Below, one piece after another: positions 1,847-21,273 of a DNA stretch of 64,000 nt (its first letter is position 1; each line of letters opens with the position of its first letter). The position numbers and the translations under genes were made by a program. The notes below the pieces were generated by a model that did not search any database, was not told the DNA's origin, and was given only the letters and a program-made list of their open reading frames with translations. Origin of the DNA: Planctomycetota bacterium (GTDB lineage: Bacteria > Planctomycetota > Planctomycetia > Pirellulales > Lacipirellulaceae); the NCBI GenBank assembly GCA_029259915.1, contig JAJDED010000039.1, forward strand, positions 124,001-188,000, given 5' to 3'.

Positions 1847-2134
1847 GGCACTCGGCTCAAGAAACCCGTTCACACATTGGGAGTAGCCAGGATCGGGTAC
1901 GAGGCAGCTTTGACAGTACTACCTCAACATTCCTAGTTTAGGTTTGATTTCCTGCTTTGCGAGGGATCCCATAAGGCAGAATCGCTACAAGCCGCATCAC
2001 TGGACCAGTCCGCTCGGACGTTAAACTCCTCGAAATGTCAAACCCCGCAGAATATGTTTTACTTTAGCACAGTTCCTAGATATACTTTACCGCATCGAAC
2101 GCATTGAATGGAAGGATTGGGAGGTAAATTGCAG

Positions 2135-3418
2135 ATGGTTTCGTCAAAGCACAGCATTTGCTTCACTGTGCCTCTGTTTTTCTCGATCGTATTGCATGGC
2201 GCATCAGCGGAAGTCATGCTCAACTGGGTCGATGTTGGCGATCCGGGCAATCCTGAGAATACGGTTTTGAAGAAAGATGGTACGAGTGGATACGGTGCCG
2301 TTGGTTACGAATTTCGCATAGGCAAATACGAGACAACCAACTTCCAATACTCCGAATTTCTCAATGCAGTTGCTGCCACAGATTCTAACGATCTCTATCA
2401 CACCTCCATGGGGACGGCATTGGAAGGTGGAATCACGCGATCAGGTACTAGCGGAAGCTATACCTACTCTTTGAAGCCCAATATGGGTAACAAACCCGTG
2501 AACTTTGTGTCGTGGTTCGATGCAGCTCGCTTTGCAAATTGGCTCCACAATGGCCAGCTCGTTGGAATACAAGACAGTTCGACGACAGAGGACGGTGCCT
2601 ACACATTTAGTGGTCCCGAAACGGTCGGTACCCGCAATGCCGGAGCGCAATTTTTTCTTCCAGACGAACATGAATGGGAGAAGGCGGCTTTTTACGAACC
2701 TGGCGCTAACACATTTCTTGGAAACGGGTGGTGGCAAAACCCATCTCATAGCGATGTTTTTCCGTCGCCGGCCACAGCGGATGCGACCGGAAATGTCGAC
2801 AACCCAGGTCCCAACGTGGTTGTTTTTCGAAACTCAGCTAATTGGAACGGCACCACGCGAGGCAACGTCACCACGGTGGGTAGTGCTGGGAATGAGTCTT
2901 TCTATGGCGCAAGAGATATTGCGGGGAACGTGTTCGAATGGGTCACCCATGACCCGACGAAGCCTGACCCAAACGGTTGGGGGCCCTACAATGTTCGTGG
3001 CAGTTCGTTTTTCCAATTTGGACATGTCGACATCTACGAGCGGAATCTCGTGCATCATGATAATCACGCCATCGTCAGTAATAATGTCGGCTTCCGACTT
3101 GCGGCAGCCTTCGCAGGGCCAGATTCGGCAGATTTTAACCTCGACACTTTTGTGAATGGAGTGGACCTGGGATTGTGGGAGCAAGGTTATGGGATTTCAA
3201 CATCCGGAGATGCGAATCACGATGGCGTTTCGGATGGCGACGATTTTCTCATCTGGCAACGGCAGTTCACAGGTGTAGCATCATCTGCCGCCGCAGTGCA
3301 TGTGCCCGAACCCACCTCGTGGCTGGTCTTCTCTGGCCTGATTACCATTTTCTTGGCCTGTCGGGGTGATCGCTTCGGCTCCACCTACTTCACGCCACAA
3401 AACCTCCGAGCAAGATGA
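2135..3418 (+). CDS. Exported SUMF1/FGE-sulfatase-like domain protein with dockerin-like segment and PEP-CTERM sorting signal
   Basis: The protein is 427 residues. Residues 1-25 form a signal peptide ending HGASA. About 30-325 is a formylglycine-generating-enzyme-type (SUMF1) fold, seen in KYETTNFQYSEFLNAV, PVNFVSWFDAARFANWL, LPDEHEWEKAAFY, DIAGNVFEW and a final VGFR. About 333-378 is the aspartate-rich, calcium-loop-like dockerin segment common in planctomycetes. Residues 390 onward are VPEPTSW, a hydrophobic stretch and an Arg-containing tail, which is a PEP-CTERM signal. The start is ATG 2135 because GGGAGG lies ten bases upstream and a clean signal peptide follows; an ATG at 2108 is in frame but poorer. 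Apart from one cysteine in the signal and one in the tail, the protein has none, so the FGE catalytic cysteine pair is absent and it is unlikely to activate sulfatases. It probably acts outside the cell as a binding or structural protein. Confidence 0.85.
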   Translation: MVSSKHSICFTVPLFFSIVLHGASAEVMLNWVDVGDPGNPENTVLKKDGTSGYGAVGYEFRIGKYETTNFQYSEFLNAVAATDSNDLYHTSMGTALEGGITRSGTSGSYTYSLKPNMGNKPVNFVSWFDAARFANWLHNGQLVGIQDSSTTEDGAYTFSGPETVGTRNAGAQFFLPDEHEWEKAAFYEPGANTFLGNGWWQNPSHSDVFPSPATADATGNVDNPGPNVVVFRNSANWNGTTRGNVTTVGSAGNESFYGARDIAGNVFEWVTHDPTKPDPNGWGPYNVRGSSFFQFGHVDIYERNLVHHDNHAIVSNNVGFRLAAAFAGPDSADFNLDTFVNGVDLGLWEQGYGISTSGDANHDGVSDGDDFLIWQRQFTGVASSAAAVHVPEPTSWLVFSGLITIFLACRGDRFGSTYFTPQNLRAR

Positions 3419-3783
3419 GGCTCTCAGGGCTTAAATAAGAGTAGTAAAATGTCTCCACTAGGAAAAGTGATCGCGAGTCAATTGTAGCAAGAGTTGTCAA
3501 ACGGACTCGTCGGATCTGTTTCGACACGGTGCGCACCATCTGCTAACAAAGTGCGTGTAAGTACCGTTTTCTTTAAATGTTTGAGCCTTTACCCATGGAA
3601 GCCCTATAAATTTCTTGTGTTTATGAACAATGGCATTAGAATAAGGGGACACGACTAGGGCCTGGAAAGCCTTCTTTCCAGTGAGAAATTTATTTTTGGA
3701 CAGCGGGGTTTGAGTAGATTTATTTCTTGCTCTTCAAATGACGTAGTCATTTGCACATCATTGTTTCATCTCCGCTGAATACC
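3419..3783. other. Intergenic region with two perfect hairpins upstream of the sulfatase gene
   Basis: No gene is evident in these 365 bases. The stretch is AT-richer than its flanks. It holds an 8-bp perfect stem with a 4-base loop at 3662-3681 (CTGGAAAG/CTTTCCAG) and a second 8-bp perfect dyad at 3735-3753. It presumably carries the terminator of the SUMF1-like gene and the promoter and leader of the sulfatase gene. Confidence 0.5.
3735..3753. promoter_or_regulatory. Perfect dyad (possible operator or leader hairpin) before the sulfatase gene
   Basis: CAAATGAC and GTCATTTG are exact inverted copies separated by GTA. The centre is about 40 bases before the preferred ATG at 3784. Its size and symmetry suit a dimeric repressor site; a leader RNA hairpin is the alternative. 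No matching copy was noticed elsewhere in the window. Confidence 0.35.
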
Positions 3784-6700
3784 ATGAACTCTCAAATCTG
3801 TTGGAATCGTTCTTCCTGCTGGCTAACCATTGCGCTCTCTTTGGTAAGTGCAATGACAGTTTGTCTTAACAACCGTGCTCACGGCCAGACACCGAATATC
3901 GTGGTGATTCTCACCGACGATCAGGGTTGGAGCAACACGTCCGTGCAGATGGACCCCAATGTTCCGGGGTCGAAGAGCGATTTTTATCAGACCCCGCGGT
4001 TGGAACAGCTCGCGAACGCCGGAATGCGATTCTCCAATGGTTATGCCTCCGCGTCGGTCTGTGCGCCGACGCGCGCCGCAATTCAGACGGGCATGAGCGT
4101 TGCGCAACTTCAGATACCCGACTTGCCCATTAATGCCCCAGGTCAGTCACGATGGGTACGCTCCGAGAGAAAGGGACTGACGCCACCCGCGTCGGAAGAT
4201 TTAGAACCAGATGCGTTCACAATTCCAAAGATGATTAAACAGGCCAACGCAAACTATGTGACGGCTCACTACGGCAAATGGCATCTTGATTTTCCGACTG
4301 GGATTAGTCCCGCGACTGCTGGCTACGACTTTGATAATCCCATATCGCCGCTCCCGCCGGACGAGGTGGACCCTTGGGGCTCGTTTCAAATTGCTAACTT
4401 AGCCAACAACTTCATGCAGGATCGGGTCACCAACAGCGAGCCATTCTTTATGCAACTGTCGCATAAAGCGGTACACGAGCCAGTTCGCTCACGTCAGGTG
4501 ATTCGAGATAAGTACGCAGCGCTTCCACCAGGGACCGTGCATAACGATCCAGCCTTTGCCGCGATGACCGAAGATCTTGATACGTCGGTTGGTATGGTTC
4601 TTGACAAGATCACGGAACTGGGTATTGAGGATAACACGTATGTTGTCTTTGTCTCTGACAATGGGGCGCAAACCACGTTTAGCTCTAACCTCCCACTATC
4701 TTGGGGGAAGTCGACCATACGAGAGGGTGGCATCCGAGTGCCGTTCGTCGTGAGTGGTCCTAATGTGGCTGCAGGCAGTGTTAGCGATGTCCCCGTGACG
4801 ACGACTGATCTGTTCACGACTATCGCCGATCTTGTGGGGCACAACGGTCCACTGCCCAGCGAACTTGAAGGCGCCAGCATCGTGCCCTTGTTGCATAACG
4901 GCGGACAGCTACCTGCTGGAACGGATCATCTGACGAGAAATTTCCACGAGGGTGGCGAACTCTACTGGCACAGGCCGGTTTACTCCGACACTTTCAACTC
5001 ACCCGACTCCGCAGTACGAGATGGCGACTTCAAGCTGCGTGTCCGATATGGCGTTGACGGTCAGCCGGACCAGCACTTTCTCTACGATTTAACCACAGAC
5101 ATCGCTGAGGCGACCAATCTGGCAGGCTTGATGCCTCAAAAGGTCACGGAACTTAGAGGCAAGTTGGACAGATATCTTGAAGCCGTCGACGCCTCGCAAG
5201 CGTATGAGGTCGAGGCCAACGTGGTCATGGAGTGGGATGCCTCCCAGCCGGGAAAGGACCAAAATGGATGGCGGTCGACGATCGATCTCGACTACAAAGG
5301 TCGTGAGACCTGGAAACTCGACAAAACAGTGAATCGGCCTACGCAGGTTCAGATCGCATCCTTTCAACCTATGCTGCCCGACCACGCATTCAAATTTATC
5401 GGCGGCGACCGCATGGACCGACTTTTTTTCCATGTTGGCCACGATGGATTGAGAGTGGACACCTCTGATCCGACCCTATCTGATTTTGATCGCTCGGCTA
5501 CCATGGAGTTCTGGATCCGACTGGACTCGCTTACCCAAGAGCAAATCTTGTTTGAATCTGGCGACGGTTCGGCAGGCATTTCCGCCACCCTTGGCGATGC
5601 AGACGCCGATGGGTTGGCAAACGACGTGCGAATGCGGGTTCTTGGCCTGGCAGGAGCAGACACTGGGGGCGCCGGCACATTAAATGACCTGACCGTGACT
5701 GCGAAGATCGACCGATTTGCCAATCCCGGAGACGATTTTATTCACGTTGTTGCCGTTTTCAACGACGACGAAAACGATCGTTATGGCGAAATCTATGTCA
5801 ATGGCACGCTAGCGGCGCGCGTCGACGGTTTGACAGGGGCTACTCAGAGCATTAACTGGGACGGATACGATCGGGCAGGTTTGGGCGGGATTGGCGGAAG
5901 CGGGCTGGGTGGCAACGGCGGTACTGGCGATTTACCCTTTAACGGTGGTTTTCAAGGCGATATGGCCTTAGTGAAGTTTTACAACCACGCTTTGACATCT
6001 AGCACTATCCGCGGCAACTACAACTCGGTACTTGATCCGGTCGATTTCGGAATCCACTCGGTCACTGGTGGAGCCGTGACGCCCGTAGAACGCCCCAGCA
6101 ATGTTTCTCTCAATGCCCAAGAGTCGTCTTCGCTGTTAGTGATCGAGGAGCGTAGCGATACGCTGGCCAGCTTGCTTGCGGTCGATGCGATCGTCACTGG
6201 CCCGGTGACCTTGAATTCTGGTAACGCTGGAACCGCAGGAAGTTTGTTGGCCGGGACCGATTTTACAAGCTACCTGCTTCAATTCGATCCGGCGAGTAAC
6301 AATGGTGCCATTATCGAATCGGTCATCGGATCGATAACATTCCAACAAGAAATCTTGGCGATCCTCTTCGATTCGGTTTCCTTGTCTGGCTCCGATGCTT
6401 TGCTCGGTGCGGTTGGCGACTATGGCAATGAAATCGATCGGGGGCTTCTCCTTACTGGCGGCGACTTCATTACAATTTCGCCGGATCAACGTACGTTGAT
6501 TTTTGATTTCAGTCTAGCTGGCGACGAACTATTGCAGTTTCGCGTGCTGACCGATCAGGTGTTGGCTGCTGATTTCGACAATAATGGGATTGTCAACGAT
6601 GTGGATCTGGCAATCTGGCAGGCGGCTTATGCAATCGACGGTACGGGCGATGCCGACTTCGATGGCGACACCGACGGCGACGATTTTCTCATCTGGCAAC

Positions 6701-6828
6701 AGCAGCTTGGTAGCGGGGCTCTTTCTACAGCCAGCGCTGTCCCGGAACCGGCCACTGTTTGGCTATTAGCGATTGCCGCGGTCTGTGGTTTTACCCGGAT
6801 GCGGATTTCTTATGCAAACTATTCTTGA
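3784..6828 (+). CDS. Exported type I sulfatase with LamG-like and dockerin-like modules and PEP-CTERM signal
   Basis: The protein is about 1014 residues. After a signal peptide ending at AHGQ comes the sulfatase fold. ILTDDQGW supplies metal ligands. CAPTRAAIQTG at about residue 93 is the C-x-P-x-R signature whose cysteine is converted to formylglycine. GKWHLD and FVSDNGAQT complete the site. About 515-690 resembles a concanavalin/LamG domain with EFWIRLDS and a glycine-rich GGIGGSGLGGNGG loop. Near 930-980 is a dockerin-like segment, then VPEPATVW and a hydrophobic PEP-CTERM tail. It should hydrolyse sulfate esters of a secreted or environmental polysaccharide while held at the envelope. The frame continues to a TTG at 3751, but ATG 3784 gives a proper signal peptide. 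It is encoded opposite to, and ends 39 bp from, the sulfotransferase gene. The substrate cannot be inferred. Confidence 0.9.
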   Translation: MNSQICWNRSSCWLTIALSLVSAMTVCLNNRAHGQTPNIVVILTDDQGWSNTSVQMDPNVPGSKSDFYQTPRLEQLANAGMRFSNGYASASVCAPTRAAIQTGMSVAQLQIPDLPINAPGQSRWVRSERKGLTPPASEDLEPDAFTIPKMIKQANANYVTAHYGKWHLDFPTGISPATAGYDFDNPISPLPPDEVDPWGSFQIANLANNFMQDRVTNSEPFFMQLSHKAVHEPVRSRQVIRDKYAALPPGTVHNDPAFAAMTEDLDTSVGMVLDKITELGIEDNTYVVFVSDNGAQTTFSSNLPLSWGKSTIREGGIRVPFVVSGPNVAAGSVSDVPVTTTDLFTTIADLVGHNGPLPSELEGASIVPLLHNGGQLPAGTDHLTRNFHEGGELYWHRPVYSDTFNSPDSAVRDGDFKLRVRYGVDGQPDQHFLYDLTTDIAEATNLAGLMPQKVTELRGKLDRYLEAVDASQAYEVEANVVMEWDASQPGKDQNGWRSTIDLDYKGRETWKLDKTVNRPTQVQIASFQPMLPDHAFKFIGGDRMDRLFFHVGHDGLRVDTSDPTLSDFDRSATMEFWIRLDSLTQEQILFESGDGSAGISATLGDADADGLANDVRMRVLGLAGADTGGAGTLNDLTVTAKIDRFANPGDDFIHVVAVFNDDENDRYGEIYVNGTLAARVDGLTGATQSINWDGYDRAGLGGIGGSGLGGNGGTGDLPFNGGFQGDMALVKFYNHALTSSTIRGNYNSVLDPVDFGIHSVTGGAVTPVERPSNVSLNAQESSSLLVIEERSDTLASLLAVDAIVTGPVTLNSGNAGTAGSLLAGTDFTSYLLQFDPASNNGAIIESVIGSITFQQEILAILFDSVSLSGSDALLGAVGDYGNEIDRGLLLTGGDFITISPDQRTLIFDFSLAGDELLQFRVLTDQVLAADFDNNGIVNDVDLAIWQAAYAIDGTGDADFDGDTDGDDFLIWQQQLGSGALSTASAVPEPATVWLLAIAAVCGFTRMRISYANYS

Positions 6829-6867: not shown

Positions 6868-7698
6868 CTATCGGTCAACACGATATCTCGCCTGCATCGC
6901 TTCGCGCTCTACTTGCGTAAAGAAATGTTGCACATAGCGCGAGTCGACAATGGCATCCAGATAGGGCTGGGGAATCGTGATGCTTTGTTTAAGAATCTTG
7001 TACTTCTCGGCATAGTCGGTCTGGTCCCCTGGTTTCCCCGGAGGCAGCTGACGATTGGTGTCCGAGACACTCTTGGAACTGGCCATTGCGAAAGTTGGAA
7101 CCCCGATAAACTCTGCGAGGACTTTAGCCTTCTGTGCGTCTGGCAATTCGGTTCGCATAACGAGTACATCATACGGCCCATCACGAAATTGCATGGTGCC
7201 ACTTTGTCTGTCAAACGGGTGCTCGTAGACATTGACTCCCAGGGCAGCCTGGAACTCGTTTTCAAACCATTCGAGTGGCCGAAGATGGCGATTTGCCTGC
7301 AAGTATTCCCGACAAAAATCATCCGACAACTGGTCAGGGCTCACTGGTTCATTTTGATCCGCAGCCCCGCTTTGGTGAATTTCTTGTTCCCCATAATCGG
7401 ACCGGGCATAGGTCGAGAGAATATTATCAATGGGGCTACGTACAAGGGAGATGACCTTGGCCGCGCTGCGCTTGCCGATGATGTGCTTGCAAGCCCATCG
7501 CGCCGAGCCTGAGAAAGGATGCGTCGCGAGCTTCTTTGGATCCAGACTATGCGATCCGATCGCAAACACTCCTTGAGCCTCCAAGGAGCGCATCAAGGCA
7601 ACAGAGCCTGATCGTTGCATCGCAAGAACGAGTGTCGGAGTGCGCCGCCGGATGAAGTAGTTGATGTGTAGATCAAGAAACCTCTTGATTTTCTTCAT
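6868..7698 (-). CDS. PAPS-dependent sulfotransferase family protein
   Basis: This 276-residue cytoplasmic protein has an N-terminal P-loop-like 5'-phosphosulfate-binding segment, VLAMQRSGSVALMRSLE at about 24-40. It also has the 3'-phosphate-binding element LVRSPIDNILSTYA at about 85-98, equivalent to the R-N/S-P-x-D-x-x-x-S-x-Y pattern of sulfotransferases. These enzymes move sulfuryl groups from PAPS to a hydroxyl or amino group, here most plausibly on a glycan given the surrounding polysaccharide genes. It lies 75 bp downstream of, and on the same strand as, the kinase-ATP sulfurylase fusion, which could supply APS, the PAPS precursor. The family assignment is firm at fold level; the acceptor is unknown. 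No APS kinase is visible in the window. Confidence 0.8.
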   Translation of the reverse strand: MKKIKRFLDLHINYFIRRRTPTLVLAMQRSGSVALMRSLEAQGVFAIGSHSLDPKKLATHPFSGSARWACKHIIGKRSAAKVISLVRSPIDNILSTYARSDYGEQEIHQSGAADQNEPVSPDQLSDDFCREYLQANRHLRPLEWFENEFQAALGVNVYEHPFDRQSGTMQFRDGPYDVLVMRTELPDAQKAKVLAEFIGVPTFAMASSKSVSDTNRQLPPGKPGDQTDYAEKYKILKQSITIPQPYLDAIVDSRYVQHFFTQVEREAMQARYRVDR

Positions 7699-7773: not shown

Positions 7774-10026
7774 CTATTCGACAAAGAGAGGTTGTTTCGC
7801 TTTACGCATTTCGAGCAGCAAACTGGAGACCTCTTCTCGCATACACCAAGAAGGTACCGGTTGATTTTCTCCCAACAACTCTCGAATCATGGTGCCAGAA
7901 ATAGCCTTCAGATCGCCTCCGTCGGGAGTGTCCGATTCGACCATGGCATCTCGTCCTTCCGAGTAATACACCGTGTCGAAAAAGACGGGTGTGATGCCAA
8001 AATCGCCCAGAGAATCGAATAGTTCTTTGTTCTCGTTCGCCTTGTAGTAGCCTCCGACTCCCGTATGGTCGCGTCCCAAAACGAAGTGGGTACAACCGAA
8101 ATTCTTGCGGCACAAGGCGGTGAACACGGCCTCGCGAGGACCGCAATACCGAGAATACGTGCTAAACGCGGCCAACAGCGAATTTGGAAAACGTGCGGAG
8201 ATGAGTCTCTCGTAAGCTCCCATGATCGCCTCGGGAGTAAAATCCCCCGACTTTTTCGGACCAATGACCGGATGAATCAACACGCCGTCGGCATTGCTCC
8301 GCTCGCAAGCGTTGGCAATGACATGTTCGTGACCGCGATGGGGAACATTGCGCGTATGGAACGCAACGATTTTGGTCCAACCCTTGATGTCGAACAGCGT
8401 CCGCGTTTGATCGGGAGTGAGCTGGTAGGGCGATCGTGCAACGTTCGCTGGACCTAGATACTCGATTGGACCTCCCAGCATTGTGATGCCACGGTCCATG
8501 AATCGCGCAACGCCCGGATGGCTTTTATCGGTCGTGCCAAACCAACGTTCCGCGACGCTCTTTAATTCGACCTCGTACTTATCTTCCAGATGTAGAATGG
8601 CCCTCGCCTCGCCCGTGCGACGATCGATCAATCGAATCGATTGGCCAGGGTGGAAGGCTGCAAACTCCTGGCTCTTGCCCTGCAGAACGATCGGCATCGT
8701 CCAAACATCGCCGGTGGGCAGATGATTATCGTTCAGCACGCCTTCCAGTTGTGCCTCGGTCATGAAACCTTTCAGCGGCGAGTAAACTCCGTGGGCTATT
8801 TGTTCGATATCCATTGCGGTTTCGACGTCGACTTCGATCGAAGGCAACTTCTTCAGCATCGTTTTCGACACCGTGCTAGTTACAGACGACATTGGCTTGT
8901 CGACAGCGCTGAGCCCATGAAGCGAAGGCAGCAGCAAGGGGCTCGATTCCAATAAATCTTCGATGCGATGCCCATCTAACGAGCGACGGTATCGCTCGAT
9001 CATGCTCAGTACCATGTCGACGGCAAGAACCGGGTGCTTGCCGATTGCCGTTTCGGCAGCCAACACGAGTCCGTTAGCCCCATCCAACAGTGTGTTGGTG
9101 ATATCATTCAACTCCGCCCGGGTCGGCTTGCGGTTGACAAGCATCGATTCGAGTAAGTTCGTGGCAACATTGACCGGCTTTTTCGCGATGTTGCCCTTAC
9201 GAATAATCGCCTTCTGCAGGAACGGGATATTTTCCAAGGGAACTTCACGAGAGAGATCGCCACGATCGATCAAAATCTCGTCGGTTTCCTCAAGGATGGC
9301 GTCCAGATTTCGCACGCCCTGCTTGCTTTCGATCTTGGAAATGATCGTCGCATCGGGTCCCGCATACTTTCGCAGCAGAGCAACATCTTCGGCCGTATTG
9401 GCAAACGACAGCGCGAAATGAGTGATGTCATGTTGCCGACCAATCTCCACAGCCGCGATGTCATCGTTGGTAAGCGGCTGCAACTTTGGTGCGGGATCGA
9501 TCACCACCGCCTTGTTCGAGCCAATCTTTCCGCCGTTGAGAACCACAGTCTCTGCGCTGTCTGCCTCTGCTTTGAGTACCAGCAAAACAACACCATCGAA
9601 GTCGAGTCCGATCAAACTGTTTGGACGAAGCTCCTCAAACACACTTGCCGGCGTTAGCGACAGACAATCGGCCGTGCCAACCACAGTTTCGCGCGTGAGT
9701 CGCACATGCTGGCGATCGCGGACCACGACATCCTGCTCCATGGTACCGGTGCGTACCTGAGCACCCTCGGTGTCAAGGCAGATCGGCGTAGACGAAAACG
9801 ACTGGATGATGCCGATCGTCTCCGCAACTTTGTCCAAAGGAGTATGCGACAAGTTGATTCGAAACAGATCAACTTTACGATCTTGAAGTCGCTCGATCAC
9901 TTGGCGGTTCAGAGAACTTGGGCCAAGAGTGCAGAGAACGCTAATGATGTGACCCGATGTTTTCACTTTATGCCTTTCGAAAAATTTAGAAACTGCGCGT
10001 TGCCTCTGGGACATCAAGTGAAACAT
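7774..10026 (-). CDS. Pyruvate kinase-like domain fused to ATP sulfurylase
   Basis: The protein is 750 residues with two enzyme domains. Residues 25-350 match pyruvate kinase: TLGPSS 33-38, RINLSH 56-61, DTEGAQVRTG 85-94, SKIE with the catalytic lysine at 231, DRGDLSREVP with metal-ligand Asp257, and PTRAELNDITNTLLDG 301-316. The usual C-terminal regulatory domain of pyruvate kinase is missing. About 375-745 is ATP sulfurylase: HTRNVPHRGH 557-566, GPKKSGD 589-595, GRDHTG 651-656 and ISGT 709-712 followed by Arg715. The sulfurylase makes APS and pyrophosphate from ATP and sulfate. The kinase domain could regenerate ATP from phosphoenolpyruvate to pull this unfavourable step, which is inference. 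Two deviations stand out: His557 replaces the Gln of QxRN, and SGETA of pyruvate kinase reads AAETA. It is followed by the sulfotransferase gene. No ribosome-binding site is obvious before ATG 10026; ATG 10014 is an alternative. Confidence 0.9.
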   Translation of the reverse strand: MFHLMSQRQRAVSKFFERHKVKTSGHIISVLCTLGPSSLNRQVIERLQDRKVDLFRINLSHTPLDKVAETIGIIQSFSSTPICLDTEGAQVRTGTMEQDVVVRDRQHVRLTRETVVGTADCLSLTPASVFEELRPNSLIGLDFDGVVLLVLKAEADSAETVVLNGGKIGSNKAVVIDPAPKLQPLTNDDIAAVEIGRQHDITHFALSFANTAEDVALLRKYAGPDATIISKIESKQGVRNLDAILEETDEILIDRGDLSREVPLENIPFLQKAIIRKGNIAKKPVNVATNLLESMLVNRKPTRAELNDITNTLLDGANGLVLAAETAIGKHPVLAVDMVLSMIERYRRSLDGHRIEDLLESSPLLLPSLHGLSAVDKPMSSVTSTVSKTMLKKLPSIEVDVETAMDIEQIAHGVYSPLKGFMTEAQLEGVLNDNHLPTGDVWTMPIVLQGKSQEFAAFHPGQSIRLIDRRTGEARAILHLEDKYEVELKSVAERWFGTTDKSHPGVARFMDRGITMLGGPIEYLGPANVARSPYQLTPDQTRTLFDIKGWTKIVAFHTRNVPHRGHEHVIANACERSNADGVLIHPVIGPKKSGDFTPEAIMGAYERLISARFPNSLLAAFSTYSRYCGPREAVFTALCRKNFGCTHFVLGRDHTGVGGYYKANENKELFDSLGDFGITPVFFDTVYYSEGRDAMVESDTPDGGDLKAISGTMIRELLGENQPVPSWCMREEVSSLLLEMRKAKQPLFVE

Positions 10027-10253: not shown

Positions 10254-11519
10254 TCAACTTGAAATAGGCCCGCCGCTGACCCTCGAATCGCCGGACCGAA
10301 GGGCGGAGGGTGTCGGGGGATCGGGCTCTACAGGCGGGGGGTCGTCCAGCAGGCCCACCGCGGCCATTGCCAGACGAACTCCCTGTACCGGATCCCCACG
10401 GCGACGCCAATCGTCTAGGACTTGCAGCGATGCCAATCGCATCGACGCCAGCTGTTCGGGATCACCTGTGACATTCCGCAGGAGTTCGGCAAGCCGCGTT
10501 ACATCGCCGACAGGAAACGTTCCTCCGTTGACTCCATCGCGACAGAGTTCAGCCCCAGCACCTACCACGTCGCTGGTAAACATGGCCAAGCCGGCCGCCG
10601 CCGCTTCGCAGACGACAACCCCCCAGGGTTCATAACTGCTGGGCAATACAAACACCTCAGCACACGTGTAGAGGGCACTCAATGTGTCGCGATCATTGAT
10701 AAAGCCGGCCCAAACAAATCGGTTTTTCAATTTTTCCGGAATTCGATCACGGAGCTCCGCCTCGAGCGGACCCCCTCCGACAATTAGTACGTCCCAGTCA
10801 GGTCGTTCGTCAGCAATTTCTACAAAGGCATCGATCAGTGTGTCGATTCTCTTCACAGCTGCGAGGCGGCCCGAAAAGAGGATGACCTTTCTATCTGCTC
10901 GTAGGCCAAATTTTTCTCTAGTCGAATCGCGCAATTCAGGGCTTACATTAAATATCTTGGCGTAGTCGGGTTCGTGCGGCATAAAGAAACATGACTTGCC
11001 TCCGCCGCCATAACTCTCAAAGAACTTCTGGCCAAGCGATCCGCAGGGGAAAAATCCCGTGACCGATCGAACCGTGTAGCCAAGATAACAATTCTTAACG
11101 AGCCGGCGCCAACCTCTGGTTTTGTCTCCCAGAATATTGGCGTCTGCAAAAACAAAATTGGGAACCCCATGACGGCGACACCAGGTAATTAACCGAAGCA
11201 ATCCGGGATCGTTGGCACCGGTGGTGATAACCATGTCGATCTTTTTTTCTTTGATCTCGCGGATCACATGGCCCATCTTGGTCCATTGGCGCAACGGATG
11301 CCGCTGTTTCTCGCGGGCCGATTCCCCTTTGCCAAATACGATTGGCCTAATTTCTGGTGGCAATTCGTAATCCCATGGCTGCCAATCGTGCTCGAATAGC
11401 ACAAACGACCAGAGCTCGACCTCGTCTCCCAATTCGCGCGCAATACGCTGATGCAGGCTGACCCGATAAGGAGCCGCTACGTTGGAAACAATCGCAAGTT
11501 TTTTCTTGTTGTTCGTCAC
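10254..11519 (-). CDS. GT4 family glycosyltransferase
   Basis: This 421-residue GT-B protein has an N-terminal acceptor domain (LAIVSNVAAPYR, then TTGANDPGLLRL) and a C-terminal nucleotide-sugar domain. The latter contains KVILFSGRLAAVKRID, VLIVGGGPLEAELR, VWAGFINDRDTL and VLPSSYEPWGVVVCEAAAAG. The last includes the E-x7-E motif of retaining GT4 enzymes, which binds the donor. It should add one sugar to the lipid-linked repeat unit on the cytoplasmic face. The start is GTG at 11519, since no better start is in frame upstream. It follows another GT4 gene by 48 bp, so the two are likely one transcript. The C-terminus is proline-rich (DDPPPVEPDPPTPS) and probably disordered. The sugar specificity is unknown. 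Confidence 0.85.
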   Translation of the reverse strand: MTNNKKKLAIVSNVAAPYRVSLHQRIARELGDEVELWSFVLFEHDWQPWDYELPPEIRPIVFGKGESAREKQRHPLRQWTKMGHVIREIKEKKIDMVITTGANDPGLLRLITWCRRHGVPNFVFADANILGDKTRGWRRLVKNCYLGYTVRSVTGFFPCGSLGQKFFESYGGGGKSCFFMPHEPDYAKIFNVSPELRDSTREKFGLRADRKVILFSGRLAAVKRIDTLIDAFVEIADERPDWDVLIVGGGPLEAELRDRIPEKLKNRFVWAGFINDRDTLSALYTCAEVFVLPSSYEPWGVVVCEAAAAGLAMFTSDVVGAGAELCRDGVNGGTFPVGDVTRLAELLRNVTGDPEQLASMRLASLQVLDDWRRRGDPVQGVRLAMAAVGLLDDPPPVEPDPPTPSALRSGDSRVSGGPISS

Positions 11520-11567: not shown

Positions 11568-12590
11568 TCACGTTCCCAGGTGCCGCTGATACGCCTCAAC
11601 AAGATTGCTAGCCGACTGATCCCAGGTCAGATTCTCCAGTATATGCTTACGCAACGAATCGCTGTGAGACACGTTCCACACACGCTCGACCGCGTGGCGA
11701 ATACCCGAGACCGAGTTCGGGTCGACGTATTCAGCCAAATTGGCAAAATAGTCCGGTGGTCCTCCGTTTTGGGTAATTACGACCCCTGCGCCATAACTTG
11801 CCGCTTCCAATGCAACCAACCCTGTTCCCTCGTGTATGCTTGGCAGGCAGAAGACTTTGCAAGCCGCGTACAGGCCATTGAGTTCCGTCCGATCAAGGAA
11901 ACCGAGTAGTTTTACATTTCCATACTTTTTGGCTAACGCTCGAATTTGGTCCAGCACAGGTCCTGGCTGGGCACTGCCGGCAATCACTAGCGGAACCCCG
12001 GTCGGACCCACGGCCTGGATAAGCCGAACCACGTTCTTGCGAGCCTGTGTGTAAGCGCTAACGTGCAGAAGAAAATCTTCACTCAGTTCGTACTGCTGAC
12101 GAACCGTTTCGGGATCTGCCTTCTCTGGCGGATTCACGCCGTTCAGAACGATTTCAGTCTTCGCAGGATCGATGCCCAAACCGCGCACAATCCGCTCCCG
12201 TTCATGCATCGATCGGCAAATGACCAAATCACTGCCGCACGCCTGCTGGCGAAAGACGCCCGGTATGGTAAAGACTTTTCTCGCGAGACCACCTAGTCGT
12301 GCGGCAAGACGATAACGCCGATTCGACTCATTCGTATCGATAATCGGCGCGAAGACCAACATCCTTGCCGACACGGGCTTTACTTTTTCGATGCCCTTAT
12401 GCGCGAATCCACCCACGAAAAACTGCACAACGTCAAACGGCTCACCATCATACGCTTGCCAAGGGTCCATTCGACGAACGTCGTGACCAGCCCGCTCGAG
12501 CGCTTCGGCTTGATACTCAGCTTGCGCGCGGATTCCATTGCCCGCATTGGACAGTGTGAAATTCCCGGGCAGGATCATCCCTATCTTCAT
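11568..12590 (-). CDS. GT4 family glycosyltransferase
   Basis: The protein is about 340 residues with GT-B architecture. The N-terminus MKIGMILPGNFTLSNAGNG has the glycine-rich loop of GT4 enzymes. The C-terminal domain has FLLHVSAYTQARKNVVRLI, LVIAGSAQPGP, VKLLGFLDRTEL and CLPSIHEGTGLVALEAASYG, which carries the E-x7-E donor-binding motif. I start it at ATG 12590, because MKIGMIL begins the first beta strand; an ATG at 12605 adds five residues. It lies between a methyltransferase gene and the next GT4 gene on the same strand and should act in repeat-unit assembly. The sugar donor cannot be predicted from the sequence alone. Confidence 0.85.
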   Translation of the reverse strand: MKIGMILPGNFTLSNAGNGIRAQAEYQAEALERAGHDVRRMDPWQAYDGEPFDVVQFFVGGFAHKGIEKVKPVSARMLVFAPIIDTNESNRRYRLAARLGGLARKVFTIPGVFRQQACGSDLVICRSMHERERIVRGLGIDPAKTEIVLNGVNPPEKADPETVRQQYELSEDFLLHVSAYTQARKNVVRLIQAVGPTGVPLVIAGSAQPGPVLDQIRALAKKYGNVKLLGFLDRTELNGLYAACKVFCLPSIHEGTGLVALEAASYGAGVVITQNGGPPDYFANLAEYVDPNSVSGIRHAVERVWNVSHSDSLRKHILENLTWDQSASNLVEAYQRHLGT

Positions 12591-12734
12591 AATGCTATCC
12601 TGCATTCCTCACCGTCAAGGCGGTCCTCACCGGGATCTGTCTTTTACACACCATAATAGATTTACGCTCAACAATCAGCTGCCGACCGAGTATTCAATCA
12701 GCGCTGCGCGAATCCTGCTAGGAAAACTGTAGGG

Positions 12735-13499
12735 CTAGACAGCTTCGCCAAATTCTATCTTGTAGGTACGTATTACACTTCCATCGCCAACTTCAACACT
12801 AGATACTTCCAGTATTAGCTGCAAACACTGACTCGGGGTATTAAAAGGAGGCTTATCTAAGTAAACGCCAGAGTTTTGACTCATCCTGGTCCAACTCCCA
12901 TGCACTATGTCCTTGTTAGGAATAATGCCTGGATTATCCGCTGGAAGATGCTCGGTTACAAAGCAAACCTTATACTTCCGTAATTTGGGGAGGATCTTAG
13001 CTATCTGGGCATTCGAAAGATGCTGCAGAACTTGTCTCAGGAGGCAGATGTCGCCCTCGGGAAGTTCGTCATTAACAAGATCTAAACAGCGGAACTTTAC
13101 CTGGGGGTTGGTGATTGTTGATTTATGGCTTTCAATCAGATCGGAAACAACATCCACACCGACATACTCAGAGCAGTAGTCGAAGAAGTTTTTGCTTATT
13201 TCCAGATCGCCACACCCGAGATCGACAAGAGTTTTTTTCCCACCAGAAGATTGAAGATGTTCTGTGATCACTCTTATATATGGTTTTGTGATGTGCTCTA
13301 CCGATGATCCAGGACCCGAATAGAAAGCCCCTTCCTTTCTCCCCCATTTCCCTTTTCGATAGATATCCGTAAAAACCTCTCGGGATGAGCGACTCAAATT
13401 TCGCTTAATCCACGCACGTTGCCTGTACTGCGAAACAAGCCTAGCCAAAGGTCTTGGCACTAAAGCGCTAATAGTTTTTCTTATTGTTTTGGATAACAT
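12735..13499 (-). CDS. Class I SAM-dependent methyltransferase
   Basis: This 254-residue protein carries the methyltransferase core: TLVDLGCGDLEISKNFF is motif I that binds S-adenosylmethionine, YVGVDVVSDL supplies the acidic residue for the ribose, and DICLLRQVLQHLSNAQIAKIL is the post-II/III region. The N-terminal 60 residues are basic and lack a clear domain. Its place within the glycosyltransferase run suggests methylation of a sugar or a nucleotide-linked sugar, which is inference. The codon composition is AT-richer than the neighbouring polysaccharide genes, so it may have been acquired separately. Confidence 0.75.
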   Translation of the reverse strand: MLSKTIRKTISALVPRPLARLVSQYRQRAWIKRNLSRSSREVFTDIYRKGKWGRKEGAFYSGPGSSVEHITKPYIRVITEHLQSSGGKKTLVDLGCGDLEISKNFFDYCSEYVGVDVVSDLIESHKSTITNPQVKFRCLDLVNDELPEGDICLLRQVLQHLSNAQIAKILPKLRKYKVCFVTEHLPADNPGIIPNKDIVHGSWTRMSQNSGVYLDKPPFNTPSQCLQLILEVSSVEVGDGSVIRTYKIEFGEAV

Positions 13500-14667: not shown

Positions 14668-16272
14668 CTAAGAGTCCAATCGATGCTGATTAGTTTGAGG
14701 GCTGAGGAAAAACAAACGCTGCAGGATGTCCGAAATCCGATTCGGAAGTATTCCGACCAGATCGTCAAAACAGGTCCTGAAAAGTAGTCGCATGGGAACA
14801 AAAAACAAGGCCATAAAAACCAAGGCCAACTCTATGCCGCGTGGCAATGGCGCGACCGTTGCCAGGAAATACCTGTCCAAACTCAAGCAAATTATTGCAG
14901 CTATTACTGCAACCGAATAGGCAGGCAGTATGGCACCGACAAGTTGTTTAAAGCTCACCGAAAAGTTTCTCAACACAACAAAAGATGTGAATACATTAAA
15001 TACTGACTGCGAAATTGCCACGCATAATGCGATACCAGTAAGATTCCCCTCAAAGAGAAAAGCTCCTAAAGCAGCAAAAGCCATAAGCACTATTCCCTGG
15101 ACAAGTATCAACCATGCGCGAGTTTGAAAATATCCTCGGGCCGAAAGTATCACGTGGGTAAAGGAAATCAGTCCCCGTAGCGGAGAAGCAAAAGCGAACG
15201 TTTGGACCAGTGACACCACGGCAGCCCACTTGCCGTTCCAGAATAACAAATCAAGCGGTTCAATCACTACCGCCAGCAAGATACATAAAGGCGAAGACAA
15301 GAAAAACAGCACGCGGAACGACCGTACGATTGCTTTTGCCTGCCGGGCAGATTCGTTTACTAAACGACTCAGCACGGGAAACAAAATCTGTTGGACACTC
15401 ATCGCGAGCATCAGTATGACTTGAGCAGCGAGCTGGTATCCAAAGAAATATTGTCCGACCATTTTTTTAGAGACCAACAGTCCCAAAACCAAATAATCGC
15501 CATTCAGGGCGAAACCTCGGAAAAATGCGCTCAACAGCACCCAAAGCGATTTACTGAGTAGCGCTGGCCATTCTTTGAACTGGTGCCCCTTAAGCCACGG
15601 GGCAGATCGCGTTGCGGCCAGTGAGGCCACATCTTCGAAAACCGCAATCACTACCAAAGGCAAAACAAAACTCATCGCACCAAAACCAGTAAGCGCCAGG
15701 ACGATTGCGCCAACATGGCGTATGAATTGCGAAACGACTTGGATAATCGCGATAGTTTGGAAGCGAAGATCGCAACGAAGTTTTGCTATCAAGATCGAAG
15801 CGGGGGCTCCCAAGGGAAAAGTAATCGCGATCACCAACAGCAGCGAGACGAGTTTAGGATCTCCGTAGATATTTGCCACATGAAACGACATACCAGCCAG
15901 GATGGCGCCCATCGCGAGGCTAAACCACATTCCGATCCAGAAAGTAGGGCCAGAAAGCTGCTCAAACTTGCTACTGCCTTTCTGAACGATAATGTCTGGA
16001 ACACCGCCATCTCGAAAGCAACTGACAAAAGCAGAAACTGAGATTGCAATCGCAAAGATCCCGAACTCCTCGTCCAACAGAATCGCGCCGAGGACTATTT
16101 GCGAGAGGAAACTTAAGGTTTTTCCTGCGATCAAGCTGAGCGATATCCATGAGAATCCCTCGCCTGCGATTTTTCCGAGCGAACCCTGAGTGGGTGGCTC
16201 CTCCACGCCCTCTACTGCGCCAACCGACACTTCCAGGCTAAGTTGCTCAGGATGGGAAAGATTGGTCGGCAT
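14668..16272 (-). CDS. Wzx-type lipopolysaccharide/polysaccharide flippase (MOP superfamily)
   Basis: This 534-residue, strongly hydrophobic protein has about 12-14 predicted helices. The pattern GEGFSWISLSLIAGKTLSFLSQIVLG near the start and FGIFAIAISVSAFVSCFRDGG soon after are typical of MOP-superfamily exporters related to Wzx and WzxC. Such proteins flip the undecaprenyl-linked repeat unit across the inner membrane. A long N-terminal cytosolic tail of about 30 residues rich in Glu and Gly precedes the first helix. Its neighbours fit: the initiating transferase lies upstream, glycosyltransferases downstream and a Wzy-like protein further on. Confidence in the superfamily is high; the exact substrate is unknown. 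Confidence 0.88.
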   Translation of the reverse strand: MPTNLSHPEQLSLEVSVGAVEGVEEPPTQGSLGKIAGEGFSWISLSLIAGKTLSFLSQIVLGAILLDEEFGIFAIAISVSAFVSCFRDGGVPDIIVQKGSSKFEQLSGPTFWIGMWFSLAMGAILAGMSFHVANIYGDPKLVSLLLVIAITFPLGAPASILIAKLRCDLRFQTIAIIQVVSQFIRHVGAIVLALTGFGAMSFVLPLVVIAVFEDVASLAATRSAPWLKGHQFKEWPALLSKSLWVLLSAFFRGFALNGDYLVLGLLVSKKMVGQYFFGYQLAAQVILMLAMSVQQILFPVLSRLVNESARQAKAIVRSFRVLFFLSSPLCILLAVVIEPLDLLFWNGKWAAVVSLVQTFAFASPLRGLISFTHVILSARGYFQTRAWLILVQGIVLMAFAALGAFLFEGNLTGIALCVAISQSVFNVFTSFVVLRNFSVSFKQLVGAILPAYSVAVIAAIICLSLDRYFLATVAPLPRGIELALVFMALFFVPMRLLFRTCFDDLVGILPNRISDILQRLFFLSPQTNQHRLDS

Positions 16273-16394: not shown

Positions 16395-17918
16395 TCAAGT
16401 GATGGGAACTTGGGGAGAAGTCGTTGAGGAGGGTAATGAGTAGGAAGGAGAAGGAAGGGACGGCGCCTTTTCTAGCTCGCGATTGGTTGCCAAAGCGACA
16501 ATTTCCGCTTCCAGTGGTTCGAGCAATTCCATTAGCTGGTTGATAGATTCACAGGAAGTAAGTCCCTCGGGCCGGATGCCAGTCACCCAGAGCCGACCAA
16601 TCACATGCTCGTCGGCAAACAGGGGAATCTCGGCACTCCAGCGCTCGCGTTTTTCGCTACTGTGGGGTTGTTTCCAGGCCGCGTGAAAACCTTCCTGGAG
16701 GGAGGCGATATTCAGATCGAGTTGCACTTCGACAAGACTCAGTCTTTTCGCATGTTCGGTGACCGCATGCCAAAGTAGATTCCAATCTCGCGAACCTTGC
16801 AGCCGGAAGGAGACTTCGCGGGTGTCGCCGCGTTGGAATAGAAACATCACAAACGATTTGAGTCGGCTCAGCAACATCAAGAATTCAATATGTCCAAATG
16901 CTTGGGTGGCAATTAGCATACACAGCACCGATCCGATAGCCACCAACGCGACCAAGTCGTTATGCATAAACGTGCTAAGCAGCGCTCCCGCACAGGTTAC
17001 TGCACAGCAGGCGGCCACGACTCCTAGTACGCGGGTGTTCTTGCCAAACATGGCCATCAACCGATGGTGAAGGTGCCCCCGGTCGGTGGCATAAATGCTT
17101 CGGCCCGTAAGCTTGCGACGCATGATCGCGGCAAACGAATCGAAAATTGGTAACGCCCAAATTGCTAATGGCGCAGCCATGGCTACCGTCGCCGAGGCTT
17201 TGAACGAGCCGCCGATGGCCAAGGTCCCCACGACCAAGCCGATAAGCATACTGCCGGCGTCTCCTAAAAAGATCTTTGCCGGTGGATAATTAAACCGTAG
17301 AAAACCAATCAAGCTGCCCGTAAATACGGCACCCACCACAGCCACGGCTTGCTGTCCAAAGAGTACGGCCATCACGGTAATGGTCGCACAAAGTATGATT
17401 CCAATAGTAGTGGCCAGCCCGTCGATGCCGTCGAGCAGATTGAGCGAATTCATGGCTCCCAAGAGCCAAAAGATCGTAAAGGGAACCGCAAAGTATCCCA
17501 GCGTGATTTTGTAGCCGAATACCGCGAATGCATTGATCTGCAATCCCGAAGCGATGACAATCGTCGCTGCGATAATTTGCCCAAGTAGCTTATAGCGGCC
17601 CCGCATGCCAAAGCGGTCGTCGTAAAGTCCCACGGCAACAATCCATGCACCGGCAAGCAGCAAGCCGCTGAGATAGGGAGCTTGTTCGCTCAGGATAGTT
17701 TGTAGCGGAGAACTGGAAAGATATTCCACCGCAAACGTGATCGCGGCTGCCAAGAACACGGCAAGCCCGCCACCGAGCGCCACTTCATGGCTGTGACTTT
17801 TATGGTGACCGTCGGGCCGATCCACGAATCCCCAACGTCGGGCTAGCAACCCGATGAAGTTGGTAAGCGGATAGCTAACTACCGCGGCAATAAGTCCAAC
17901 CGCTATCAGATAGATCAT
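16395..17918 (-). CDS. WecA/MraY-family undecaprenyl-phosphate sugar-1-phosphate transferase with C-terminal extension
   Basis: The protein is 507 residues. The first 350 form the multi-helix transferase core: RPDGHHKSHSHEVALGGG 34-51, the catalytic LYDD at 98-101, NSLNLLDGIDGLA 157-169, FLGDAGS 217-223 and the RGHLHHR loop at 280-286. It should load a sugar phosphate, probably GlcNAc-1-P given wecB nearby, onto undecaprenyl phosphate and so begin repeat-unit synthesis. After about residue 360 comes a soluble extension of roughly 145 residues without recognised motifs. WecA and MraY proteins usually end near 350-370, so this tail may be regulatory or scaffolding. It is the first committed step of the cluster. 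Confidence 0.9.
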   Translation of the reverse strand: MIYLIAVGLIAAVVSYPLTNFIGLLARRWGFVDRPDGHHKSHSHEVALGGGLAVFLAAAITFAVEYLSSSPLQTILSEQAPYLSGLLLAGAWIVAVGLYDDRFGMRGRYKLLGQIIAATIVIASGLQINAFAVFGYKITLGYFAVPFTIFWLLGAMNSLNLLDGIDGLATTIGIILCATITVMAVLFGQQAVAVVGAVFTGSLIGFLRFNYPPAKIFLGDAGSMLIGLVVGTLAIGGSFKASATVAMAAPLAIWALPIFDSFAAIMRRKLTGRSIYATDRGHLHHRLMAMFGKNTRVLGVVAACCAVTCAGALLSTFMHNDLVALVAIGSVLCMLIATQAFGHIEFLMLLSRLKSFVMFLFQRGDTREVSFRLQGSRDWNLLWHAVTEHAKRLSLVEVQLDLNIASLQEGFHAAWKQPHSSEKRERWSAEIPLFADEHVIGRLWVTGIRPEGLTSCESINQLMELLEPLEAEIVALATNRELEKAPSLPSPSYSLPSSTTSPQVPIT

Positions 17919-18500: not shown

Positions 18501-19646
18501 TTACTTCAGGTCGAATACCCGCAGGAGTTGCTCGACAATTCGTTCAGATGCCCGACCGTCTCCGTATGGATTCTTGACGTTGGTCATCTTTTGATAGGCC
18601 CGGTCATCGGTTAGCAGCTCCGTAGTGGCGGCTACGATTTGCTCGGTCTTGGCACCAACCAACTTGACTGCGCCCGCCACGACGCCCTCAGGGCGTTCCG
18701 TGGTTTCTCGCATGACGAGCACCGGCTTGCCCAAGCTGGGAGCTTCTTCTTGCAACCCTCCCGAATCCGTGAGAATCAGGCGGCAACTTTTCGCCAGCGC
18801 CACAAACTGTGAGTAGGGCAGCGGAGAAATTAAACGGATGTTTTCAATGGCTTGCAGACGATCGGTGACGACCAACTGGACGCGAGGATTCAGATGCACG
18901 GGGTACACAAACAGGGATTCGGGGAACTTCGCAGCCAGTTTGGCCAAAGCTTCGCAAATTTGATCGAACCCGTCGCCAAAGTTCTCACGGCGATGGCCGG
19001 TGACAAGAATCAGCGGGCGGCTGAGCCAATCGCCGCCAATTAGTTCGCCCAGTTGTGCTTGAAGTTGGTTTTCAACATCCGGTTGCGATTGTCTCTCGAT
19101 TTCCATCAGCAACGCGTCGACCACGGTATTGCCTGTGACTACGATTGTCCGCTCGTCGATCCCCTCGGCCAGCAGTGCCTCGCGTGCTGTAGACGTCGGG
19201 CAAAAGTGCAGTGCTGTCAGCGGGCTGACCAATCGCCGATTGGCTTCTTCAGGAAATGGTGCACGCAAATTGTTGGTGCGGAGCCCGGCTTCCACATGGC
19301 CGAAAGGGATCTGGCGATAGAAGCTCGCAATCGCGGTACAAAGCACCGTGGTGGTATCGCCTTGAGCAAGCACAAAGTCGGGCTTGGCCGTGGAGAGTTG
19401 CGCGTCGATGCGTTCTATCAATCGTGCCGTGAGCCCCGCCAGCGATTGGTCGGGCTGCATCACCTGCAGTTCGGCATCGATCTGAATGTCGAACAAGTCG
19501 ATCACCTGCTGGATCATCTCTCGATGCTGCCCGGAATTAACGACGATCGCTTCCAGTTGCTGTGTACGCTGGAGTTGACGCACGACCGGCGCCAACTTGA
19601 TGGCCTCGGGCCTGGTTCCCATAAATACGGCGATACGGCGGGACAT
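18501..19646 (-). CDS. wecB: UDP-N-acetylglucosamine 2-epimerase (non-hydrolysing)
   Basis: The protein is 381 residues from ATG 19646. The first strand MSRRIAVFMGTRPEAIKLAPVVRQL is diagnostic of the non-hydrolysing UDP-GlcNAc 2-epimerase. Further signatures are VLAQGDTTTVLCTAIA, GHVEAGLRTNN with PFPEEANRRL, ILVTGHRRENFG, YPVHLNPRV and LTDSGGLQEEAPSLGKPVLVMRETTERPE. It converts UDP-GlcNAc to UDP-ManNAc in the cytosol, a precursor for surface polysaccharides. The frame stays open to a TTG at 19727, but family alignment and the ATG favour 19646. It is the upstream-most gene of the minus-strand polysaccharide run. Confidence 0.95.
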   Translation of the reverse strand: MSRRIAVFMGTRPEAIKLAPVVRQLQRTQQLEAIVVNSGQHREMIQQVIDLFDIQIDAELQVMQPDQSLAGLTARLIERIDAQLSTAKPDFVLAQGDTTTVLCTAIASFYRQIPFGHVEAGLRTNNLRAPFPEEANRRLVSPLTALHFCPTSTAREALLAEGIDERTIVVTGNTVVDALLMEIERQSQPDVENQLQAQLGELIGGDWLSRPLILVTGHRRENFGDGFDQICEALAKLAAKFPESLFVYPVHLNPRVQLVVTDRLQAIENIRLISPLPYSQFVALAKSCRLILTDSGGLQEEAPSLGKPVLVMRETTERPEGVVAGAVKLVGAKTEQIVAATTELLTDDRAYQKMTNVKNPYGDGRASERIVEQLLRVFDLK

Positions 19647-19780
19647 GCGTCTGTTCCGGTAGAACTGCTGGGGACGATTGTGGCTCTTGATGCTATCATG
19701 GTCGCCGGGCGAGTCCTCTGCAATCAATTTGTTTCTCGTCGGACGTCTGTTTTTTACCGTGCGAATTGGGAGGTTCCTAA

Positions 19781-21224: not shown

Positions 21225-21273
21225 AATTCCCTTCCGTTAAAAATTGCGGCATTTTGGGTTTGGAAGATTTGCA

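Follow-up and report, generated by a model that had tools for sequence, protein, structure and literature searches.

The window (the whole stretch of 64,000 nucleotides that was analysed) encodes a 750-residue protein, P0001, in which a pyruvate kinase (PK)-type barrel and an ATP sulfurylase are fused in one open reading frame. The fusion itself, its wide conservation, the intact catalytic residues of both halves and the linkage to APS kinase and sulfotransferase genes are well supported by sequence comparison. We propose that the fusion is a bifunctional sulfate-activating enzyme in which a dedicated kinase acting on PEP provides the ATP for making PAPS, to be used in the sulfation of surface glycans, a reading to which we give about an even chance; that the fusion family belongs to sulfation in some capacity is highly probable.

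Domain structure of the fusion protein

The gene for P0001 lies on the minus strand, with its ATG at 10026 and a stop codon ending at 7774, and has no internal stops; on the plus strand, 7774-10026 has stops in the corresponding frame. Its features are as follows.

7774..10026, minus strand: fusion gene P0001, PK-type barrel and ATP sulfurylase, 750 residues (open reading frame and translation, Pfam, AlphaFold2 and structural matches, relatives)
8977..9942, minus strand: PK-type barrel with B (lid) domain, residues ~29-350 (PF00224 at 29-336; residues 24-352 match solved pyruvate kinases)
9751..9780, minus strand: family motif CLDTEGAQVR, residues 83-92, covering rabbit D112, T113, K114 (to E), E117 (to Q) and R119 (residue census of 81 relatives)
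9250..9270, minus strand: family motif IDRGDLS, residues 253-259, covering rabbit A292 (to D), D295 (kept) and G297 (to S) (D in 81 of 81 relatives, A in 28 of 28 canonical PKs)
8437..8931, minus strand: N-terminal PUA-like part of ATP sulfurylase, residues ~366-530 (PF14306; structural match from residue 365)
7792..8427, minus strand: catalytic part of ATP sulfurylase, residues ~534-745 (PF01747)
8326..8358, minus strand: sulfurylase motif HTRNVPHRGHE, canonically QTRNxxHRxHE (motif census)
8059..8076, minus strand: sulfurylase motif GRDHTG, residues 651-656 (motif census)

Three Pfam domains were matched far over their cut-offs: the PK barrel PF00224 at residues 29-336 (4.1e-65), PUA_2 PF14306 at 383-524 (1.7e-37) and ATP-sulfurylase PF01747 at 534-739 (2.2e-64). 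No Pfam match was obtained to the PK C-terminal domain PF02887, which serves allostery and tetramer formation, or to the APS kinase domain PF01583, and a pyrophosphatase domain is also absent. The PHGG-type motif at the N-terminus of the sulfurylase begins ~16-20 residues past the end of the barrel, so that a complete sulfurylase occupies the position of PK_C. An AlphaFold2 model built with 56 relatives gave both folds with high confidence (pLDDT 90.8, pTM 0.85), and in structural comparison residues 24-352 matched pyruvate kinase 5wrp (Z 38.8, rmsd 2.1 Å, 329 residues) and residues 365-750 matched ATP sulfurylase 8a8g (Z 47.0, rmsd 2.1 Å, 372 residues). The reading frame, Pfam and the model thus bear out the preliminary description, which had placed both enzymes in one frame at the correct coordinates, had noted the missing kinase C-terminal domain and had proposed the search of the full protein with PF00224 and PF01747 in which both have now been matched; the PUA-like part of the sulfurylase is an addition to it.

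P0001 scores below the cut-offs of the corresponding NCBIfam models. For the pyruvate kinase equivalog TIGR01064 it reaches 257.5 bits against 306.4, to which the missing C-domain contributes, and for the sulfurylase models 287.4 against 322.95 bits (TIGR00339) and 349.7 against 387 bits (NF003166). The sulfurylase half is, as judged from its sequence, a divergent member of the Sat type.

Distribution of the fusion

A scan of one genome per species covered 84,980 species, and the best 80 loci were considered, comprising 68 fusions and 12 standalone barrels. Conservation of the fusion elsewhere, which the preliminary description had named as support, was found in 68 further loci and far past the planctomycetes. 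Phyla represented among these best loci include Planctomycetota, Pseudomonadota, Myxococcota, Bdellovibrionota, Omnitrophota, Elusimicrobiota, Verrucomicrobiota, Bacteroidota, Ignavibacteriota, Marinimicrobia (Fidelibacterota), Chloroflexota, Actinomycetota and CPR lineages, as well as DPANN archaea (Pacearchaeota/Nanohalarchaeota). Outside metagenome-assembled genomes (MAGs) the fusion was found, among others, in Methyloversatilis universalis, Pseudaminobacter soli, Nitratireductor, a Thauera isolate and Salsipaludibacter, and it lies on megaplasmids of Sinorhizobium chiapasense and Ensifer adhaerens. A trait restricted to planctomycetes was rejected, as only one of 296 other genomes of the same class (297 including its own) has the fusion, vs. 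dozens of fusions across phyla. The phyla are mixed in the trees, which points to horizontal transfer. Of the individual loci, L096 is the same locus as L003, the sulfurylase half of L110 is degenerate, and the long N-terminal extensions of L098 and L110 were dismissed as domains, being GC-rich read-through. No description of a PK-sulfurylase fusion was found in the open-access literature searched; its parts are known, and the combination and the existence of a PK branch dedicated to sulfation appear to be new.

Conservation and divergence of the kinase active site

Active-site residues were surveyed, in the numbering of rabbit PK, over the 69 fusions and over 81 relatives including standalone barrels. 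Fourteen positions (R72, N74, S76, H77, D112, R119, K206, S242, K269, E271, R293, G294, T327, and E363) are invariant in the 69 fusions, and D295 is kept in 68, the single change being a conservative D295E in L092. P0001 has the catalytic residues and the ligands of PEP, metal and phosphate (R72, N74, S76, D112, R119, K269, E271, D295, T327). Six positions in essentially all members are unlike those of glycolytic PKs (K114E, E117Q, A292D, G297S, Q328N, S361A/T), with A292D occurring in 81 of 81 relatives and 0 of 28 canonical PKs. The substrate-site motif ARGDL[GA] of glycolytic PKs, which the canonical PKs of fusion-bearing genomes keep, is absent from P0001, where IDRGDLS stands instead, and overall the family barrel is ~30-36% identical to canonical PKs. 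In PK structures residues 292, 328 and 361 (and 297) presumably lie near the methylene/proton-transfer end of PEP. Residue 117 sets K+ dependence in known PKs, Glu making the enzyme dependent and Lys independent (PMC4284704, PMC4374775); the Gln117 of this family, with Thr113, belongs to neither of these two main types.

Retention and decay of the sulfurylase half

The nucleotide/sulfate motifs [QH]TRNxxHRxH and GRDHxG are present in P0001, with H in place of the first Q, and this exchange of the canonical Q for H at the first residue of the motif is shared by 62 of 69 fusions. Sixty of the 69 fusions retain HTRN(xxHRxH), HxxH and GRDH; in eight these motifs are changed or lost with the PK half intact, in one fusion both halves are changed, and in none of the 69 was a decayed PK half found beside an intact sulfurylase. 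Those with changed sulfurylase motifs are L037, L070, L074, L087, L092, L093, L095, L096 and L110, with L092 also carrying D295E; the two Thauera loci among them (L092, L093) adjoin a sulfotransferase. Eight losses of the sulfurylase vs. none in reverse indicate that the kinase half is retained more strongly, which fits a kinase that serves APS kinase in addition to the sulfurylase.

Genes around the fusion and in its own genome

The genes immediately adjoining fusions number 110, of which 25 encode APS kinases and 18 encode sulfotransferases. In the control, for which up to three genes to either side were taken around the canonical PKs of 20 fusion-bearing genomes (108 neighbours), neither was among the families seen at least twice, so that each accounts for at most one of 108. 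Of 23 APS kinase genes, 22 are co-directional with the fusion and 21 lie within 50 bp of it; they commonly follow it directly with a short overlap, mostly of 4 bp. About a third of the fusion loci have an APS kinase of their own. These operon APS kinases form a divergent subfamily in which the P-loop, DGDxxR, ISP and KGLY stretches are mostly kept. Several Pacearchaeota MAGs have the fusion and a sulfotransferase without an APS kinase, and a true APS kinase was not seen in four of the five fusion-bearing Pacearchaeota MAGs, for which MAG incompleteness is a possible cause; those MAGs therefore have no visible source of ADP. In Sinorhizobium the fusion is followed by the APS kinase and then by a Na+/H+ exchanger, and an exchanger of this kind (PF00999, Kef-like) is adjacent or close to the fusion or barrel in many loci, namely L035, L037, L049, L053, L058, L087, L094, L099 and L170.

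In the window the fusion is surrounded by the following genes, by which the locus is, on sequence, a polysaccharide cluster.

2108..3418, plus strand: formylglycine-generating-enzyme-like (FGE-like, sulfatase-modifying) protein, flanking the locus (Pfam)
3751..6828, plus strand: sulfatase with lectin-like domain, flanking the locus (Pfam)
6868..7698, minus strand: sulfotransferase-like P-loop protein, Pfam NKWYS, 276 residues, next downstream of the fusion with a gap of 75 bp (Pfam, motifs, orthologue slot)
10254..11519, minus strand: glycosyltransferase family 4 (Pfam)
11568..12605, minus strand: glycosyltransferase family 4 (Pfam)
12735..13499, minus strand: methyltransferase-like protein (Pfam)
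14668..16272, minus strand: polysaccharide flippase, Wzx/MOP type (profile matches)
16395..17918, minus strand: WecA-like polyprenyl-phosphate sugar-1-phosphate transferase (profile matches)
18501..19727, minus strand: UDP-GlcNAc 2-epimerase

The NKWYS protein starts ...LVLAMQRSGSVAL, contains VISLVRSPIDNILSTYAR, and has a sulfotransferase-like P-loop (QRSGS) together with VRSPIDNILSTYAR stretches. Its orthologue occupies the same slot in L035 (42% identity), and in the close relatives L032, L033 and L034 the slot holds Pfam sulfotransferases. The gene in the window is sulfotransferase-like by motif and position, not by a sulfotransferase Pfam match; in relatives, linkage of a sulfotransferase to PAPS-forming and glycan assembly genes was found by Pfam. 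Elsewhere in the window lie methanopterin-linked C1 genes (44315-45286 and 21244-22146, both plus strand; methenyl-H4MPT cyclohydrolase and Mpt dehydrogenase N-terminal domain).

No Sat-type sulfurylase other than the fusion was found in its own genome, which has an ordinary PK with ARGDLG on another contig, a separate CysC ~100 kb away on that PK's contig, and CysD and CysNC on another contig. As CysD, CysNC and an ordinary PK are all present, the fusion would be an additional, dedicated sulfate-activating system beside the GTP-driven one. The separate APS kinase of this genome (G000:C3:116509-117009; L166:4435-5202) has an insertion of ~17 residues between DGDxxR and DRxxNxR, and similar split Pfam matches occur in three related planctomycete genomes.

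Unfused relatives and phylogeny

The same barrel also exists outside the fusion. In seven Pelagibacterales genomes cysC, sat and pyk are adjacent genes, with the APS kinase present in all seven, and the pyk product is full-length with PK_C (Pfam, two checked) and has IDRGDL[SA] and A292D. On Komagataeibacter plasmids an annotated sulfotransferase accompanies a "pyruvate kinase" barrel that lacks PK_C and has IDRGDLA, and several standalone barrels of Actinomycetota adjoin sulfotransferases; neither the Actinomycetota nor the Komagataeibacter barrels have a sulfurylase or APS kinase nearby. One standalone barrel (L100:9995-11020) lies in a histidine-biosynthesis neighbourhood with no visible sulfation genes.

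Viral contigs also contain barrels of the family. Contig IMGVR_UViG_3300027779_001649, which by appearance is T4-like, with gp46/gp47-like recombination genes, has a standalone barrel with IDRGDLS and 48% identity (L167:5992-6969); a P-loop ORF at 3523-4065 of this contig was rejected as an APS kinase, the likeness being by eye and Pfam giving a weak AAA_18 match only. In two further viral barrels (L168:463-1263, L169:501-1238) the PK lid (B) domain is wholly or largely missing but the motifs IDR(G/F)DLS, ATNL(L/M)ESM and LA(A/G)ETAIG are kept; barrels of this shape are most unlikely to be normal kinases. A weak sulfotransferase-like ORF lies at 6254-6997 of L169. Matches to "PK" in records of cultured and gut phages were mostly of 28-32% identity over the barrel and on mostly unannotated short gut contigs, and were set aside as probably bacterial DNA.

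In trees computed without the diagnostic columns 292 and 297, the fusions grouped with the standalone barrels and the phage barrel (SH-aLRT 100), and the Pelagibacterales and Komagataeibacter enzymes were separated from this group in the free quick tree. The tree uniting all A292D enzymes was 14.5 log units better than the free tree (p-AU 0.75), and a convergent origin of A292D in Pelagibacterales/Komagataeibacter was set aside, the joint tree being likelier and not rejected by the AU test. A single origin of the A292D family is thus preferred on these alignments, not proven.

Proposed function and alternatives

In the proposed scheme the C-terminal sulfurylase would convert ATP and sulfate to APS and PPi, a separate APS kinase (often the next gene, and elsewhere in the genome in the case of P0001) would convert APS to PAPS and ADP, and the N-terminal PK-type domain would use PEP to turn this ADP back into ATP on site, so that ATP stays high and ADP low at a point where each sulfate costs two ATP. 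We infer ADP as the acceptor and PEP as the donor of the kinase half, a local transfer of the ATP, and a sulfated surface polysaccharide as the product here; that the kinase half regenerates ATP from PEP is, in our judgement, about as likely as not. The preliminary description had the fused kinase restore ATP from PEP and so drive the unfavourable sulfurylase equilibrium. The idea of supply stands, but a direct drive fails on stoichiometry: PK alone cannot overcome this equilibrium, because the sulfurylase releases APS and PPi rather than ADP, and the ADP comes from APS kinase. The usual pull on the sulfurylase is removal of PPi, and published assays use the same chemistry, with ADP from APS kinase returned to ATP by PK and PEP (PMC10322725). 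In an in vitro PAPS synthetase cascade, PAPS was nearly absent without PK and PEP (PMC9885120). By analogy, the fusion and the APS kinase beside it would form such a cascade in nature. Against the supply of ATP speak the six substitutions (K114E, E117Q, A292D, G297S, Q328N, S361A/T), which are more change than a plain PK needs, the sulfotransferase-paired barrels without sulfurylase or APS kinase, the Pacearchaeota without APS kinase and the lack of a pyrophosphatase domain.

A rather unlikely alternative is that the kinase half transfers phosphate from PEP to a different acceptor of the pathway, such as APS at its 3'-OH, which would give PAPS in one step, PAP, which would recycle the product of the sulfotransferase, or PPi, which would clear the product that blocks the sulfurylase. 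The phosphate-side residues are kept while the remaining pocket has been rewritten and then frozen in 81 relatives, and both the barrels paired with sulfotransferases, with no sulfurylase or APS kinase nearby, and the several Pacearchaeota MAGs with fusion and sulfotransferase would be accommodated. However, about a third of the fusion loci and all seven unfused operons have their own APS kinase, which would be redundant with an APS-phosphorylating domain, and the B-domain is kept together with K206 and R119, which bind the nucleotide diphosphate in pyruvate kinase. The stronger statement, that the barrel would be a new PEP-dependent phosphotransferase of sulfation (PEP:APS 3'-kinase, PAP recycling or PPi clearing) and not an ADP-acting PK, we hold to be slightly less probable again.

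It is also feasible, if quite unlikely, that the PK-type domain is mainly regulatory, sensing PEP, pyruvate or ADP and setting the activity of the sulfurylase. Fungal ATP sulfurylase has an inactive APS-kinase-like domain with a regulatory role, a precedent for a regulatory kinase-like domain fused to a sulfurylase, and the fungal enzymes 1i2d and 1m8p align well with P0001 in structure comparison; the active-site changes and the phage barrels without a lid domain point the same way. Conversely, the catalytic Lys, the metal ligands and T327 are never lost in the 69 fusions except for the D295E of L092, and the PK domain is retained in the eight cases where the sulfurylase half is dead and also exists unfused, from which it would have a job that does not require acting on a fused sulfurylase. 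A fusion for mere convenience of co-expression or co-localisation, in which an ordinary PK would provide polysaccharide synthesis in general with ATP and pyruvate and have nothing specific to do with sulfation, would suit a polysaccharide cluster with its many ATP-consuming steps but is improbable given the distinct clade and signature and the specific linkage, repeated in four arrangements, with genes for APS kinase, sulfurylase and sulfotransferase, which is absent around ordinary PKs. An assembly join or frameshift between two genes, against which the preliminary description had warned, is ruled out to the point of a negligible residual chance by the single open frame, by full-length fusions of 73-77% identity in independent MAGs and of ~44% identity in complete replicons of cultured Sinorhizobium and Ensifer, and by the 68 other loci, which make the fusion neither chance nor an assembly product.

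We therefore see here an overlooked, widespread PK branch, labelled as glycolytic in databases, that accompanies sulfate activation and sulfotransferases in bacteria of many phyla, in DPANN archaea, on plasmids and possibly in phages. If the supply of ATP is its role, the hand-assembled, PEP-powered PAPS cascade exists in nature, partly in one polypeptide, and would be useful for enzymatic sulfation; if the altered pocket takes another acceptor, the reaction is new. Under either reading the family marks loci for sulfated bacterial surface glycans, and its genes should not be taken as evidence of glycolysis where they are the only PK homologue, as in several CPR and DPANN MAGs.

Comparison with known systems

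The fusion resembles pyruvate kinase (PF00224 and PF02887, EC 2.7.1.40) in its barrel and lid, its fold (Z about 39), its catalytic lysine and nearly all PEP, Mg2+, K+ and phosphate ligands. It differs in having no C-terminal regulatory domain, in its active site (ARGDLG to IDRGDLS, K114E, E117Q, Q328N, S361A) and in its location in sulfation loci, with a separate ordinary PK elsewhere in most genomes. With the Sat ATP sulfurylase (PF14306 and PF01747, EC 2.7.7.4) it shares complete PUA-like and catalytic domains, HxxH and GRDH, the best structural match being the M. thermolithotrophicus ATPS (39% identity, Z 47), whereas the QTRN glutamine is a histidine in 62 of 69 fusions, the catalytic motifs are changed in about one in eight and a kinase barrel is fused N-terminally.

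Sulfurylase fusions of eukaryotes have reportedly been reviewed. As in PAPS synthetase (ATPS-APS kinase) and other such fusions, the sulfurylase is here joined to an enzyme of the same pathway, but the partner is a PK-type barrel, there is no APS kinase or pyrophosphatase domain and APS kinase is a separate gene. The GTP-hydrolysis-driven CysDN(C) carries out the same reaction and likewise couples an extra high-energy phosphate to sulfate activation; its proteins are unrelated to the fusion, and the genome of P0001 has both systems. A parallel in logic, sulfurylase and APS kinase with PK and PEP feeding a sulfotransferase, is the in vitro PAPS cascade (PMC9885120), a man-made mix of commercial PK and recombinant PAPSS1, whereas here PK and sulfurylase form one natural polypeptide.
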